Assembly (NCBI GenBank): GCA_021157585.1
Contig: JAGGWH010000037.1
Span: 1-64,000, forward strand
Direction: 5' to 3'
Length of the DNA: 64,000 nt
Origin: Bacteroidales bacterium
GTDB lineage: Bacteria > Bacteroidota > Bacteroidia > Bacteroidales > UBA12170
Below are positions 4,561 through 57,967 of this stretch, in pieces. The notes under the pieces were generated by a model. The model searched no databases. It saw only the letters and a list, made by a program, of their open reading frames with translations, and had not been told where the DNA came from. The number at the start of each line of letters is the position of its first letter. Position 1 is the stretch's first letter. The translations under genes and the position numbers were made by a program.

Positions 4561-5620
4561 ATGATTCAAACAATTTGTACAACAAACGAGTGGATTTCCG
4601 AAATTGCTCACACAAAAAAAGCAGATAAAGGGTTGGTTCAGAAACTTATTCGTGTATTCGTGCATTAATGCTATTGGAAGGATTGTCCGAATCAAAACTC
4701 GACTACGTTTTTAAAGGCGGAACAGCACTTATGTTGATACTCAATAGCACCAAAAGATTATCCATTGATATAGATATTATTATTCCGAAAAGGATGAAAG
4801 TCTTCAAGGAATATTGTCCAAAATTGCTGATAATAAAGGGTTTATTGGTTTTGAAGAACAAAAGCGGAAAACAATTAGTGGAATAGAAAAAGCGCATTAT
4901 AAATTTTTCTATCCCAATGCACTTAAAGCGGATGATGAAGATTTTATATTGCTTGATATTTTGTTTGAAAAAATCCATTATACCACGTTGATTTCAATCC
5001 CAATTCAGTCTTCTTTCGTTTTAAATGCTGGAGATAATATCGAAACCAGAACTCCCGATTTTAATAATATCATGGGAGATAAATTAACCGCTTTTGCACC
5101 CAATACAACAGGAATCCCATATTTCAAAAATGATAGACCAATGGGTCAGGAAATAATTAAACAACTTTACGATATTGGAAATATTTTTGAAGAAATAAAC
5201 GATGTTAAAATTGTTTATGATGTTTTTGTTCGCTTTGCTATTGTTGAACTCCAATATCGGGATTTAGGTTCTGATGTGAATATTGTATTAGATGATATTG
5301 TTGAGAATTGTTTATCCATTGCATTGCGCCAACCCATTGGAAATGCTAACTTTGAAGTGCTACAGCTTGGGCTAAAACAGATTACTAATTATATATTTTC
5401 CGAAAAGTATCATATAGAAAAAGCCATTGTTCATGCTTCACGAACAGCATACCTTACAGCATTAATGAAAATCAGTACTGAACTGGAACGGTATAACAAC
5501 AAAATTGATATGAAGGAATGGATAATCGAACAACCCAACAATACCAAGCTAAATAAGCTTAAAAAGACCAATCCAGAAGCATTTTACTATTGGTTTAAGT
5601 ATTATGCATTGCATAAATAA
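4561..5620 (+). pseudogene. Broken AbiEii-type nucleotidyltransferase toxin gene
   Basis: Three frames each carry part of one protein. Frame 1 (from ATG 4561) gives an N-terminus ending in LVQKLIR; frame 2 gives MLLEGLSESKLDYVFKGGTA and then RLSIDIDIII, the KGGTAL and DIDI motifs of the AbiEii/AbiGii nucleotidyltransferase fold; frame 3 continues from LSKIADNKGF to the natural end at 5620. The first break is an 8-bp imperfect tandem duplication, ATTCGTGT at 4648-4655 beside ATTCGTGC at 4656-4663; removing one copy restores LIRALMLLEGL. The second is a missing base near 4787; adding one G restores IIPEKDESLQG. The catalytic motif is therefore split and the toxin is probably inactive. Confidence 0.85.
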
Positions 5621-43896: not shown

Positions 43897-45189
43897 ATGA
43901 AAAAACGACTATTACTTACGCTCCTATCCTTATTTTTTATTTTGTCAGTATTTGCTCAAGTCGAGATGTCAGCATTGAGTTTTGGAGAAAAAAAACAATT
44001 GAGAAAAGCTTTAAAAGTTGAAGCCTACACGCTCGATGGAAATCAGCATAAAGGGTATTTGTATTATGCTGATTCGGACAATATTTATTTAACAGACAAT
44101 CCTTTTGAAAATGGTAAGCTTACGGAGATTAAGTCCTTAGATTTATATCAAATAAAAGTGATAAGTCATATTCCTTTTGGAAAGCGTTTTTTAGGGGGAA
44201 TTACCTTTTCTGCTGCAGTAATGGCAATATTAACAGCAGAAATGTATAGTCATGGCGATGCCATTATGATAGGTCCTGATTTTGTATTTATTGCAGGAAC
44301 AGCTTTTTTTGGAACTCCCGTTGGTTTTTTATCAGCAGCTATATTTCCAAAAGAGCGAACCGATTTTGAGTATATAACGGATGGGCAGGACGAGGCTTTT
44401 AAGATAACTTCAACGTTTTTTGAAAAAAGACGGTTTACGTCTATTCACCCCAATACAGAATATGTTGAGGAACTTCATATTGTTAAAAATGATGAAGGTT
44501 TGAAGAATGTATTAGAGCCTTTAAAATCACTGCATCCTGAAGCCATAAGGAGTTTTCATCTTATGTTTGGTACTTCTTTTACAATAAATAATTTAGGTAA
44601 GCAATTGGGGGGAGTATTTTCGGATACTCAGGGACTTGAGACTGGGTATTATCGTTCAGATAGAATCAGTTTAACAGGAAAATTACAATTTAATGTGAAT
44701 GATCATATTCGTCCTTATTTGAGTTTTACTTTTGGTGAAACGGGATATGCTAGCGGCGAATTGCTTCCGGAAAGGGATGAACCTGAATATATTTATAATG
44801 ATTATTCTATCTCTTATGGCCATTTGGGTGCTGATTATGTTTTGAATCCGATAAATAATATGGGATTGTCTTCTTTTGAGTTTTCAATAAACGGAGGATT
44901 GAGCTTTGCAAAGCTTAATTATGATTATACTTCGGGTCAGACAGGTTTCTTCTCTCAACCTAAAAACACATCTTATACAAGTTTTGGACTTCAGTTAGGT
45001 GGAAGAGTGGATTATTATATCTCACGCAGTTTATCGATAAATCTCGGACTTACAACAGATATCATGTATCCAATTAAATTGGATGATATGCATTATGAAT
45101 CGGCTACAGCTGGATCTTTAGTCTTTGATGGAGGGTGGTTCAATACTTCGAACGGACAAATACATTTTGGTTTAAGTCTTCACTTATAA
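43897..45189 (+). CDS. Exported protein with C-terminal beta-barrel-like half
   Basis: A signal peptide (about 1-21) is followed by a region with two hydrophobic stretches (about 109-124 and 130-152) in a Gly-rich context, and then from about 220 alternating strands with aromatic residues ending HFGLSLHL. That end is typical of outer-membrane barrels. The N-terminal part (VEAYTLDGNQHKGYLYYADSDNIYL) resembles a small beta domain. I do not recognise a named family. Confidence 0.5.
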   Translation: MKKRLLLTLLSLFFILSVFAQVEMSALSFGEKKQLRKALKVEAYTLDGNQHKGYLYYADSDNIYLTDNPFENGKLTEIKSLDLYQIKVISHIPFGKRFLGGITFSAAVMAILTAEMYSHGDAIMIGPDFVFIAGTAFFGTPVGFLSAAIFPKERTDFEYITDGQDEAFKITSTFFEKRRFTSIHPNTEYVEELHIVKNDEGLKNVLEPLKSLHPEAIRSFHLMFGTSFTINNLGKQLGGVFSDTQGLETGYYRSDRISLTGKLQFNVNDHIRPYLSFTFGETGYASGELLPERDEPEYIYNDYSISYGHLGADYVLNPINNMGLSSFEFSINGGLSFAKLNYDYTSGQTGFFSQPKNTSYTSFGLQLGGRVDYYISRSLSINLGLTTDIMYPIKLDDMHYESATAGSLVFDGGWFNTSNGQIHFGLSLHL

Positions 45190-53249: not shown

Positions 53250-53504
53250 TTTAAGGAGCTATTGTTCTTTCTTGCTAAATATTGTTTATTTAGAAATAAT
53301 GAACAAGGAATGTTGATTATCTCCGGTAAGCTCGCAAGCTTGGTTAACGATTGACGAACTTTAAAAATCTTTATTTGTTACTCTTTGTTCTATATTCTTT
53401 TTTTGCTTTTTCGATAGGGTATTTTAAGTTTTAATCATCATATAAATGTAAGTTCGATAAGACGACTTTTAATTTGTTATATTTATAAACTTAAAATAAT
53501 CATC
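53250..53504. other. Gene-free spacer between rnf operon and the sigma/FecR region
   Basis: About 255 bp after the terminator with no ORF or RNA gene seen. A/T-rich before the next start; no firm -10 match. The small palindrome CAAGCTTG lies near 53335. Confidence 0.3.
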
Positions 53505-54809
53505 ATGAAAACAAGGAGAATTAACCAAGTGAGAACGATAGCAGTGGTTTTCATGCTATTTGTCACCTCAATCACAAGCGCATGGGCTCTAGGGCTTGAT
53601 GCTGTAGCCAAAAAGAATAACCAAGAAAGCGATACGCTTAGTTATCGTAGTTTTAAAGGTAAGATTGTAGATGCCCAAACCAAGAAAGCCCTCGTTTTTG
53701 CCAGTGTTACGGTTGAAGATGAGAACACCGCCACCATCACTAACCTCGATGGAGATTTCCTAATTAAAATTAGTAAAGACAGTAAGTCTCAGAATCTATT
53801 TGTTTCGTTTTTAGGATATTATAACCTTTCTTATCCTTTATCAAAGTTAAAAGTAGAAGGCAATGTTTTAGAACTTCAACCTGCCGTTATTACTTTAAAT
53901 GAGGTTCAGGTTTTTCCAGATGCTCCTGAATCAATAGTTCGAGCAATGCTTCGTAGGGTGGGTCAGAATTATGCAGAAGATGCAAATTCAATGAAAGGTT
54001 TTTACCGCGAATCAATAAAAAAAAGAAATACTTATGTAGGTCTTTCCGAAGCTGTTGTTGATATTTACAAAGCGCCTTACACGAATAATTCAAATGATAG
54101 AATTCGGATTTTTAAAGGACGTAAAGGGATCAACGAACGTAAGATGGATACTTTATTATTCAAATTACAAGGAGGACCAGTTACCGCTTTATTGCTAGAT
54201 GCGATGAAATATCCTCATATCTTAATAGATGAGGAAATGCTAAAGGATTACGACTTTACAATTGAAAATATGGTAAAGATTGATCATAAATTAAATTATG
54301 TAATCAGTTTTGTTGAACGACATAAAATTAAAGACTTTCCATTATACGAAGGGAAATTCTATGTGGATATGGAAACTTTTGCTCTATCGGCTGCCGATTT
54401 TAGTTTGAATATGGATAAGCCTGAAGAAGCAGCTCGTTTATTTATTAAGAGGAAACCTTTCGGAGCAAGAGTTGAACCAACAATGGCCAAGTATTCAGTA
54501 AAATATCGCGAGCAAAATGGGAAATGGTATTTCAACTATGCTATTGGCGAAGTGCAATTTAAAGTAAAATGGAAGAAAAAGTTATTCTCTACAACCTATA
54601 CACTTAAATCGGAAATTGCAATTACCGATCGCGATGAGCATAATGTAGAAACTATTCCGAATAAAGAGCGATTTAAAAGGAATCAAGTTTTAAACGATAA
54701 AGTGGGCGTGTTTGCTGATGAGAATTTCTGGGGAAAATACAATACCATTGAGCCAGATAAATCGATTGAAGTGGCTATTAGGAAGTTGAATCGAGCTATG
54801 AATAGATAA
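53505..54809 (+). CDS. Exported protein: carboxypeptidase-regulatory-like domain plus unknown C-terminal domain
   Basis: A signal peptide (about 1-28) is followed by a CarboxypepD_reg-like domain (about 47-127; FKGKIVDAQTKKALVFASVTV, TNLDGDFLI, VSFLGY) as found at the N-terminus of many TonB-dependent receptors. The remaining 300 residues have no plug or barrel; they are shared with the STN-containing protein at 56450 (common landmarks: FYRESI/FYREAV, VDIYKAP/LDVLKRP, the end NFWGKYNTIEP/NFWGGDNFLLP). Together with the sigma factor, FecR and that protein it forms one locus. The function is unknown. Confidence 0.7.
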   Translation: MKTRRINQVRTIAVVFMLFVTSITSAWALGLDAVAKKNNQESDTLSYRSFKGKIVDAQTKKALVFASVTVEDENTATITNLDGDFLIKISKDSKSQNLFVSFLGYYNLSYPLSKLKVEGNVLELQPAVITLNEVQVFPDAPESIVRAMLRRVGQNYAEDANSMKGFYRESIKKRNTYVGLSEAVVDIYKAPYTNNSNDRIRIFKGRKGINERKMDTLLFKLQGGPVTALLLDAMKYPHILIDEEMLKDYDFTIENMVKIDHKLNYVISFVERHKIKDFPLYEGKFYVDMETFALSAADFSLNMDKPEEAARLFIKRKPFGARVEPTMAKYSVKYREQNGKWYFNYAIGEVQFKVKWKKKLFSTTYTLKSEIAITDRDEHNVETIPNKERFKRNQVLNDKVGVFADENFWGKYNTIEPDKSIEVAIRKLNRAMNR

Positions 54810-54894
54810 GCCAATGTTTAGTTGATTCACAGAGGGAAGGAGGAATACTCCAATCCTTTGGACTTTTTTGTAAATTGATATTAAATTTTAGGCA

Positions 54895-55446
54895 TTGACA
54901 TTACACGATACAGCACGGTATAAAGCCATTAAAAAAGGCAATATTCAAGAGTATGAACTCTTGTTTAGGGAATACTTCCAGCCTTTGCTGTCTTATGCAA
55001 TATCAATATTAAAATCGGAAGCCGAGGCAGAAGAAGTTGTTCAAGATATATTCTTCAATCTGTGGAGAAACAAAAAGAAACTGAATATTCATACCTCCTT
55101 TTCATCTTATCTCTACAGAGCAGTTCATAACAATTGCTTACAATTATTGAAAAAAGAAAAAAGGAAGTTGAATTATCAACAAGATCAAAGAAACTGGAAT
55201 TATCATGAGAGTATGAGCCCAGGGGAAATTATGCAGTATAATGAGCTTTATGAAAAAATAAATAATGCCATTGACGAATTACCTGAAAATTGCAAAACAA
55301 TATTTAAGCTCAACCGTTTTCAGGGTTTAAAATATAGTGAGATAGCTGAAAAGTTAGCGATTAGCATTAAAACTGTGGAGGCTAATATGACCAAAGCATT
55401 AAAACATTTAAGACGCCATATGGATAAATATGCAGCAAATTTTTGA
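54895..55446 (+). CDS. ECF sigma factor (sigma-70 family, Bacteroidota FecI-like)
   Basis: The 183-aa protein has sigma region 2 (about 20-90, FREYFQPLLSYAISIL, EEVVQDIFFNLWRN) and region 4 (about 120-175, ELPENCKTIFKLNRFQGLKYSEIAEKL). Start is TTG; no better ATG is near. The anti-sigma FecR gene overlaps its stop. Such pairs usually respond to a TonB-dependent receptor with an STN domain; here the following gene has STN but no barrel. Confidence 0.93.
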   Translation: MTLHDTARYKAIKKGNIQEYELLFREYFQPLLSYAISILKSEAEAEEVVQDIFFNLWRNKKKLNIHTSFSSYLYRAVHNNCLQLLKKEKRKLNYQQDQRNWNYHESMSPGEIMQYNELYEKINNAIDELPENCKTIFKLNRFQGLKYSEIAEKLAISIKTVEANMTKALKHLRRHMDKYAANF

Positions 55447-55454
55447 AAGAAAGA

Positions 55455-56444
55455 ATGGAAACAAGAACAAATAACAAATATTGGGAGAATATAACAGCCT
55501 ATTTCTCCAGAGAGTTAAGTGATGATGAATTAATCAATATCGAAACTTGGGCAGATGGGCAAGATGGGAAGGAGTTGCTGATGGAAATGGATAGAAAAAT
55601 GAATACTGTAGAAAAAGCCAGCTTTATGTATAATGAGAAAACCGACTTGGCTTGGAATAAATTGAATACTAGAATTCAGGAGGAAAAGCCTGAAATGAGT
55701 TTTTTCTTCAATCCCAGAAATCTCGTAGGAATCGCGGCTAGCATAATTGTGTTGTTGGGAGTGGGCTTTGGAGTTTTTAAATTATTACAAAATGATATGG
55801 AAATGAATAGCTTACAGACTGCTTTTAACCAAAGTAGGGTAGAGCTTGCTGACGGAACTATTGTACATTTAAACGGAAATAGTTCGCTTGTTTATCCCGT
55901 TGAATTTAGCGAAGAAACCCGTTCGGTAAAGCTTACTGGTGAAGCTTATTTTGATGTGAAATCAGATAAACAACATCCTTTTGTTATTGAAACAAATAAT
56001 GCTCGAATTCAAGTACTGGGGACTTCTTTTAATGTTAAAGCTTTGAATTCGCAAGGTGATGTGGAAGTGATGGTAACCAGTGGAAAAGTGAGTTTGCAAG
56101 ATATCCAGAATCCCACAAAAGAGTTGATCTTGGAAAAGGGTGATTTTGCTAGTTTAATAAATAATGAATTGCAAAATAGGTCAGTTAGCGATGAAAACTA
56201 TTTAGCTTGGCAAACCAAATTTCTCAACTTTAACAATACACCTTTGCGCGAAGTTGTTAAAACGCTTAACCGCGCCTATGCTGTGCAAATAGAATTGGCT
56301 GAGGAGAAGCTTGGCGAATTGCCTTTGACTTCTAAATACGATCAAATGTCAGTGGATGCCTTATTAGATGCCATGTGTTTGACTTTTGGCTTGGATAAAA
56401 AAGTAGAAGGAGAACATATAATACTTTATTCACCAACACCTTAA
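55455..56444 (+). CDS. FecR-type anti-sigma factor
   Basis: The N-terminal cytoplasmic part (about 1-85) holds the sigma, a membrane helix lies about 90-112, and the periplasmic FecR domain follows (ELADGTIVHLNGNSSLVYP, GEAYFDVKSDKQHPFVIET, VLGTSFNV), with a C-terminal domain (FNNTPLREVVKTLNRAY) as in Bacteroidota FecR. ATG 55455 is preferred, but a TTG at 55443 would overlap the sigma stop and is possible. FecR senses an STN domain in the periplasm. Confidence 0.92.
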   Translation: METRTNNKYWENITAYFSRELSDDELINIETWADGQDGKELLMEMDRKMNTVEKASFMYNEKTDLAWNKLNTRIQEEKPEMSFFFNPRNLVGIAASIIVLLGVGFGVFKLLQNDMEMNSLQTAFNQSRVELADGTIVHLNGNSSLVYPVEFSEETRSVKLTGEAYFDVKSDKQHPFVIETNNARIQVLGTSFNVKALNSQGDVEVMVTSGKVSLQDIQNPTKELILEKGDFASLINNELQNRSVSDENYLAWQTKFLNFNNTPLREVVKTLNRAYAVQIELAEEKLGELPLTSKYDQMSVDALLDAMCLTFGLDKKVEGEHIILYSPTP

Positions 56445-56449
56445 TTGAT

Positions 56450-57967
56450 TTGCAAAAGCTCTGTTTAGTCATAATATTGCTCTTATTATTTAATGTCCAC
56501 CTAAAAGGACAAGAGCAGGTTTTGTATCAACCAGAGAATTTGAAATTTACGAATATAACGGTAGATTCTGCTTTGCAAATCATCGAAAATCAAACGGGTT
56601 TACATTTTACGTTTAATTCTGATTTATTACGTACTACAGAAAATGTAAATGCGCATTTCCAGAATATACCGCTTTGTATTATTTTAGATAGCTTGTTTGC
56701 AAATCCTAGCTTGAATTATCAAATAATTGAAAGTCAATTGGTTGTTTATGAGCAAAGAGTTGTGCTTGACTCTAACCCACTTGAAATTGATTCTATCGTG
56801 GCATCCTCGCTACAACTTTCATTTGGAGGTGAGATACGAGATTTTGAAACAGGTAAGCCCCTTCCGTTTGCGGCTATATCATTACAGAATTCGGCTGTGG
56901 GAACGGTTAGTAATGAGGATGGAATATTTTCGCTTAAGTTTACTAGTCACAATCTAAATGATTCTGTTTTAATTAGTTATTTGGGATATAAAACTTTGAT
57001 AATACCGCTAAAAAATTTTCCTAAATATCAGGTTTTTCAACTCCAGCCAACAAGTATATCTTTAAAAGAAGTTACCGTTCGTAGCTTGTATCCTGAGGGA
57101 CTCCTTCGTTTGGCTATTGCAAATAAGAAGAAAAATTACCCCAATCACTCCTTTGTTCAAAAAGCTTTTTATCGCGAAGCCGTAAGAAGAGATAAGAAAT
57201 ATATGTTGTATTCTGAGGGGATTTTAGATGTTCTTAAACGCCCATATCGTCCTTCGCTTTTTAATGAGCAAGTGAAATTGGTTAAGCAAAGGACTTTTAA
57301 ATCTATTGTGCGTGAAGACACGGTTCAGTTTAAATTACACGGTGGAATACAAACGAGTTTGGATTTGGATGTGGTTAAGCATAGCTTTTCATTTATTAAT
57401 CTGGAGTCTTTGGTTGAATACACTTATACTATACAAGATATGGTTTTAAATGATGGAAGACTAACGTATATGATAGCATTTCAACCTAAAAATACAAAGC
57501 AAGCCTTTGCTTTTGAGGGTTTTATTTATTTGGATGTTGAGAGTCTTGCTTTTGTAAAATTTGAATTTAAATATACCAAGACTTCTTTGCAAAAAATGCG
57601 TAATGCATTTGTTATTCGATCGAGTCCAAAGTTGAAAATAATTCCCACAGATGTGCATTATGCCGTTACTTACAAAGAATTTGAGGGTTTGTATTATATC
57701 CATCATATTCAAGGTGAGTTGAATTTAAAGGTTAAGCGTAAACGTAAATTCCTATCCTCTAAATACTCTGCTAGTTTTGAAATGGTTGCTACGGAACTTA
57801 GTGGTAATGCACCACGACGCTTTGCTTCTGATCAAACCATAAAGCCTAACAAAATTTTCAGCGATCTTTCACCTCATTACGATTTAAACTTTTGGGGTGG
57901 TGATAACTTTCTACTTCCTGAAACTGATTTAATGGAGGCTTTTGAACGTTTGAGTTTGGAGAAATAG
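56450..57967 (+). CDS. Exported STN-domain protein without TonB-dependent barrel
   Basis: Start TTG and a signal peptide (about 1-21). Residues about 32-100 form an STN (secretin/TonB short N-terminal) domain, with FTNITVDSALQIIENQTGLHF and FQNIPLCIILDSLF. A CarboxypepD_reg-like domain follows (about 127-205, FGGEIRDFETGKPLPFAAISL). The final 300 residues match the C-terminal part of the protein at 53505 and contain no plug or barrel. At 505 aa it is about half the length of a TonB-dependent receptor. It ends the operon. It is presumably the signal input to the FecR and sigma pair (inference). Confidence 0.75.
   Translation: MQKLCLVIILLLLFNVHLKGQEQVLYQPENLKFTNITVDSALQIIENQTGLHFTFNSDLLRTTENVNAHFQNIPLCIILDSLFANPSLNYQIIESQLVVYEQRVVLDSNPLEIDSIVASSLQLSFGGEIRDFETGKPLPFAAISLQNSAVGTVSNEDGIFSLKFTSHNLNDSVLISYLGYKTLIIPLKNFPKYQVFQLQPTSISLKEVTVRSLYPEGLLRLAIANKKKNYPNHSFVQKAFYREAVRRDKKYMLYSEGILDVLKRPYRPSLFNEQVKLVKQRTFKSIVREDTVQFKLHGGIQTSLDLDVVKHSFSFINLESLVEYTYTIQDMVLNDGRLTYMIAFQPKNTKQAFAFEGFIYLDVESLAFVKFEFKYTKTSLQKMRNAFVIRSSPKLKIIPTDVHYAVTYKEFEGLYYIHHIQGELNLKVKRKRKFLSSKYSASFEMVATELSGNAPRRFASDQTIKPNKIFSDLSPHYDLNFWGGDNFLLPETDLMEAFERLSLEK

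Follow-up and report, generated by a model that had tools for sequence, protein, structure and literature searches.

FecR pathways are usually understood to signal the uptake of external nutrients via an outer-membrane receptor. In one such pathway, the STN-type signalling domain of FoxA binds FoxR and, when no signal is present, shields it from proteolysis (PMC11637429). A partner of a different construction is VreA of the P. aeruginosa PUMA3/Vre system, a mostly soluble periplasmic STN protein of 23 kDa that lacks a beta-barrel, possesses a TolA/TonB-like C-terminal domain and is encoded together with an ECF sigma factor (VreI) and a FecR-type regulator (VreR) (PMC2729926). In a further group of systems, the LolA/LppX-like domain of MucB/RseB holds the anti-sigma factor MucA and releases it upon lipid binding (PMC7400510).

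The locus described here lies within a window of 64,000 nucleotides (this being the whole stretch of DNA that was analysed) from the genome of a member of the Bacteroidales. It encodes, on the forward strand, an exported protein (referred to as A), an ECF sigma factor, a FecR-type anti-sigma factor and a second exported protein (B). The nearest known system is Vre, as in both cases a barrel-less STN protein is linked to an ECF sigma factor and a FecR, and a partner of this kind has precedent in VreA. The C-terminal domain differs, however, with B possessing a CarboxypepD domain and a C-terminus that is LolA-like according to a fold search, rather than TolA/TonB-like. Other dissimilarities to Vre are that the module includes A, a paralogue without an STN domain, that it spans many families of the Bacteroidales (and thus belongs to another phylum) and that it has its own promoter motif. 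With systems of the FecI/FecR/FecA type, including FoxA-FoxR, the locus shares an ECF sigma factor, a FecR with a FecR_C domain and an STN-bearing transducer, but B has neither the plug nor the 22-strand barrel of a TonB-dependent receptor, which implies no transport and no direct exposure at the cell surface. The occurrence of a probably LolA/LppX-like periplasmic protein beside an ECF sigma factor and a membrane anti-sigma factor resembles the arrangement of RpoE-RseA-RseB and AlgU-MucA-MucB, and B may be alike to RseB/MucB in being a possible lipid sensor (PMC7400510). The two differ in that FecR is not RseA, contact in this locus would run via STN and FecR_C, and no sequence match of B itself to RseB was obtained, with a distant relative (L011) showing a weak match to MucB_RseB (PF03888, E = 0.048). 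No published description of the locus was found in the openly licensed literature searched.

The module retains a FecR pathway in many families although no receptor is part of it, and some genomes have no FecR other than that of the module. For Bacteroidota it provides a testable candidate for how periplasmic lipid or lipoprotein stress is sensed, and members of the Bacteroidales may use it to detect disturbances of the cell envelope.

Gene content and domain organisation

The gene of A (53505..54809) encodes a signal peptide, a CarboxypepD-like domain (CarbopepD_reg_2, E = 1e-12) and a LolA-like C-terminal domain (53910..54806) that is homologous to that of B. It lacks an STN domain, and the region following CarbopepD_reg_2 gave no Pfam or NCBIfam matches. 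The ECF sigma factor (54895..55446) is of the TIGR02985 type, scoring 168 bits against a cut-off of 126, which corresponds to the FecI type of Bacteroidota. The FecR-type membrane anti-sigma factor (55443..56444) was matched by both PF04773 and FecR_C (PF16344) over their cut-offs and possesses one transmembrane segment (residues ~94-112). It represents the sole FecR_C match in this genome; single matches were also found in each of the module carriers G001, G008 and G072, and in G039.

B (56450..57967) is an exported protein consisting of STN, CarboxypepD and LolA-like domains, the last of these covering residues ~206-505 (57065..57964). CarbopepD_reg_2 was matched in B with an E-value of 1e-12, and the STN domain (PF07660) was matched weakly, under its curated cut-off (E = 5e-4). 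Among 80 proteins of the A/B family, PF07660 was matched in 36 at E<=0.1, with a best E-value of 7e-13, and weak profile matches (E 0.1-0.3) were obtained to the PupA signalling domain (2a02) and to PilQ N0. B proteins carry a signal peptide, with 43 of 44 lacking a lipobox. A TTG start is apparent for both the sigma factor (54895) and B (56450), and the start codon of the latter is kept in relatives within the genus.

The first-pass annotation had described an ECF sigma/FecR locus with an STN protein lacking a receptor barrel, and its four genes, their coordinates and their domains were all confirmed. Its further statement, that A is an exported protein encoded upstream of the sigma gene with the same C-terminal domain as B and no STN domain, also held, as the C-terminal domains of A and B share 29-31% identity with many positions being invariant, and invariant FYRE-type and W motifs occur in these domains across the A/B family. 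A receptor barrel or plug in the C-terminal region was looked for, and no Plug or barrel families were listed by Pfam for B or for the 80 A/B proteins. The number of strands in the AlphaFold model of B was likewise too small for a receptor barrel.

Elsewhere in the window, positions 43897-45189 encode a 430-aa exported protein for which no Pfam match was obtained.

Fold of the C-terminal domain

The C-terminal domain had at first gone unrecognised, and structure prediction together with profile comparison now places it, with moderate support, as being like the LolA superfamily. An AlphaFold model of B, generated with an 80-row family alignment, had a pLDDT of 87.2 and a pTM of 0.84, with the pLDDT of the C-terminal domain being mostly >80. 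Comparison of this model to the PDB using Foldseek showed that its CarboxypepD part matches the N-terminal extension of a SusC protein (9hfj). Matches to LolA-superfamily and lipid-transfer folds were to DUF1329 (4z48), P. gingivalis LolA3 (9tp6), the LolA-superfamily protein NE2245 (3buu) and MTP (6i7s), with probabilities of 0.99-1.00 and alignments spanning ~270 columns, the target-normalised TM-score for the LolA entries being low (~0.34).

Profile comparison of the domain using hhalign gave an E-value of 1.2e-4 against a LolA_like set and of 5.3e-5 against a LolA-type set, compared to ~0.2 for the controls (sigma factor and FecR), with the LolA match covering 54-62 columns at a probability of 55-67%. 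No LolA Pfam match was obtained for B, and no PF03888 (RseB/MucB) match was listed by Pfam for A or B; the distant relative L011 was matched by LolA_like (PF17131) with an E-value of 3.6e-4. Judged from the model and these profile matches, the domain probably belongs to the LolA superfamily of lipid- or lipoprotein-binding proteins, which are open half-barrels with a helical lid and a hydrophobic cavity for acyl chains and whose fold is that of RseB/MucB.

The predicted half-barrel is shared with LolA, with carriers of LolA_like and with DUF1329, from which the domain of B differs in being longer (~295 residues), in being fused to CarboxypepD and STN domains and in having marginal sequence similarity to them. 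A CarboxypepD domain followed by a related domain is also found in proteins with DUF5686, but these continue for several hundred further residues (open frames of ~820-850 aa) where A and B stop. In DUF5686-type proteins (L004 and other long frames), the part after CarboxypepD was also observed to match LolA_like weakly, and CarboxypepD proteins of the phylum may often have a LolA-like fold.

Conservation and gene order

The profile of the C-terminal domain was run on 393 genomes sampled from the order Bacteroidales, with matches being found in 119 of them. Regions chosen for a match to A and/or B were then read out, 58 at first and further ones later. The search for other loci with the same gene order yielded 39 instances of A-sigma-FecR-B, which represent 17 GTDB families and include four genomes of the window's genus. 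Sigma-FecR-B without an adjoining A was found in 11 further loci, and A-sigma-FecR with B on another contig in three. B adjoins sigma-FecR in ~50 loci, even where A has been lost, and in a few genomes (e.g. G039) A and B each stand alone. A contig scan with B as the query gave a close relative as the sole match. A reading of the locus as a pseudogene was ruled out by this conservation.

Linkage to the rnf operon was found to be confined to the window's genus and was not taken as functional, with the genus neighbours rnf and sucC being absent from loci of other families. Tandem duplicates of A were observed in family f15 (L081, L082, L083), where the full promoter motif described below occurs only at the copy beside the sigma gene. 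In another locus, L118, an identical 26-base sequence is present in opposite orientations at 4687 (-) and 6490 (+), flanking the B gene.

In family f173, which belongs to another order, a homologue of A was identified (L209-L213) with no sigma, FecR or B nearby and without the promoter motif, indicating that the basic function of A is independent of the pathway. At L212 this homologue lies near genes that, judged by eye, are relA/spoT-, fur- and purA-like.

Promoter motif

A candidate sigma-dependent promoter, ATAGGGTA-N15-ATCATA, was identified upstream of A at 53414..53442 on the basis of motif conservation and spacing; as with all matches reported here, it is a match to the consensus. The motif ATAGGGTA-N15-ATCWTA precedes A in ~44 of 47 cases with nearly fixed spacing. 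TAGGGT was present in 44 of these 47 upstream regions, compared to a mean of 2.5 and a maximum of 7 among shuffles, and the full bipartite form was present in 37 (mean of 0.05 and maximum of 1 among shuffles). In the 2.93-Mb genome of this study, the match at A is the only one to the strict motif. Across 43 genomes, 45 strict matches were obtained versus 16 for a reversed-pattern control (as counted from the table of matches). Genomes G224 and G114 each contain one match, at A, despite having 70 and 52 FecR_C matches, respectively, which shows that this is not a general FecI promoter.

The motif was also found where the gene order differs. In family f65, in which A is unlinked, it precedes A in L106-L110 and also lies directly 5' of the FecR frame in L097, L104 and L118, and in family f98, in which A is absent, it sits before the sigma gene in L101 and L116. 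Conservation of the motif supports a tie of the sigma factor to A and to its own operon and, with the promoter defined, the regulon is directly testable. Allowing one mismatch in this genome gave seven matches versus 16 in the control, and thus no evidence of a wider regulon there. In f98, extra motif matches precede the same genes in pairs of genomes (L154, L156, L160, L161, L163, L164, L166, L167), these being genes for a MORN-repeat protein and a DUF3836 protein, a pantothenate-kinase operon and a TatD-asparaginase-ExbB operon. The extra matches suggest a wider regulon in this family.

Proposed mechanism

The module combines parts of FoxA-FoxR and of MucA-MucB, and the simplest reading of this is that the STN domain holds FecR while the LolA-like domain senses an amphiphile. 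The favoured interpretation, to which a probability of roughly 0.6 is assigned, is that of FecI/FecR-type cell-surface signalling in which periplasmic, presumably soluble B acts as an amphiphile-sensing transducer and the sigma factor induces A and the operon. FecR, the membrane anti-sigma factor, would be held by B through docking of the STN domain on FecR_C. The LolA-like half-barrel of B would sense a periplasmic amphiphile, with lipids, LPS and mislocalised lipoproteins as the likeliest candidates. A filled pocket would alter the contact between STN and FecR, the sign of regulation presumably being such that FecR is then processed and the ECF sigma factor freed. The freed sigma factor would transcribe A-sigma-FecR-B from the TAGGGTA-N15-ATCWTA promoter, while A, with no STN domain and what would be the same pocket, may be a binder or carrier of that ligand and function both as an effector and in negative feedback.

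The architecture of the locus, its conservation, the single FecR and the linkage to the promoter are directly visible in the genomes. The idea, raised in the first-pass annotation, of a non-transport STN protein feeding FecR has good support from comparative genomics, through the linkage of B, the single FecR_C match and the promoter motif. It is also conceivable, at somewhat less than even odds, that the module represents an envelope-stress sensor of the RseB kind built onto FecR signalling in Bacteroidota, in which a LolA-type domain that binds lipids or lipoproteins, joined to STN, would report periplasmic amphiphiles to FecR and the ECF sigma factor, and STN-less A would be the main target. 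In other genomes, with many FecRs and TonB receptors, cross-talk is possible.

Alternative partners for the STN domain

B could instead be an adaptor whose STN domain contacts FecR and whose other two domains (CarboxypepD and C-terminal) dock on a separate outer-membrane sensor, be it a receptor or a DUF5686-type barrel. An extracellular signal would then be relayed by B. VreA has been proposed to contact some outer-membrane protein (PMC2729926), CarboxypepD domains form the N-terminal extension of SusC-type receptors, and the arrangement of CarboxypepD and LolA-like domains also begins DUF5686-type proteins, all of which favour such a role. However, no outer-membrane protein was consistently linked to the locus across the loci read, with the rnf and sucC neighbours being limited to one genus, and a search for a TonB-dependent receptor as a neighbour found none of the 20 Plug matches of this genome to lie on the window's contig (C37). 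A role as adaptor is regarded as unlikely.

The presence of those 20 Plug matches would also accord with the true STN partner being a TonB-dependent receptor encoded elsewhere, with B being a downstream product that competes for FecR or lying outside signalling. Two TonB receptors, L191 (G000:C162) and L192 (G000:C94), were observed to carry an N-terminal extension of ~165 residues before CarboxypepD that looks STN-like by eye, but these extensions matched neither Pfam STN nor the STN profile of the B family. The Pfam STN search of the genome gave no match at cut-off, its sensitivity being limited as the STN domain of B itself was missed too. The retention of B beside sigma-FecR, including in loci without A, also speaks against this explanation, which is considered improbable.

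The STN and CarboxypepD N-terminus common to B and SusC-type receptors might imply that B arose by decay or truncation of a TonB receptor, with the barrel lost in this lineage. This is exceedingly improbable and is refuted by the barrel-less form being conserved across families. In 44 homologues B has its full length of 483-539 aa, its C-terminal domain is conserved, well modelled and common to A, and intact reading frames are retained in dozens of genomes.
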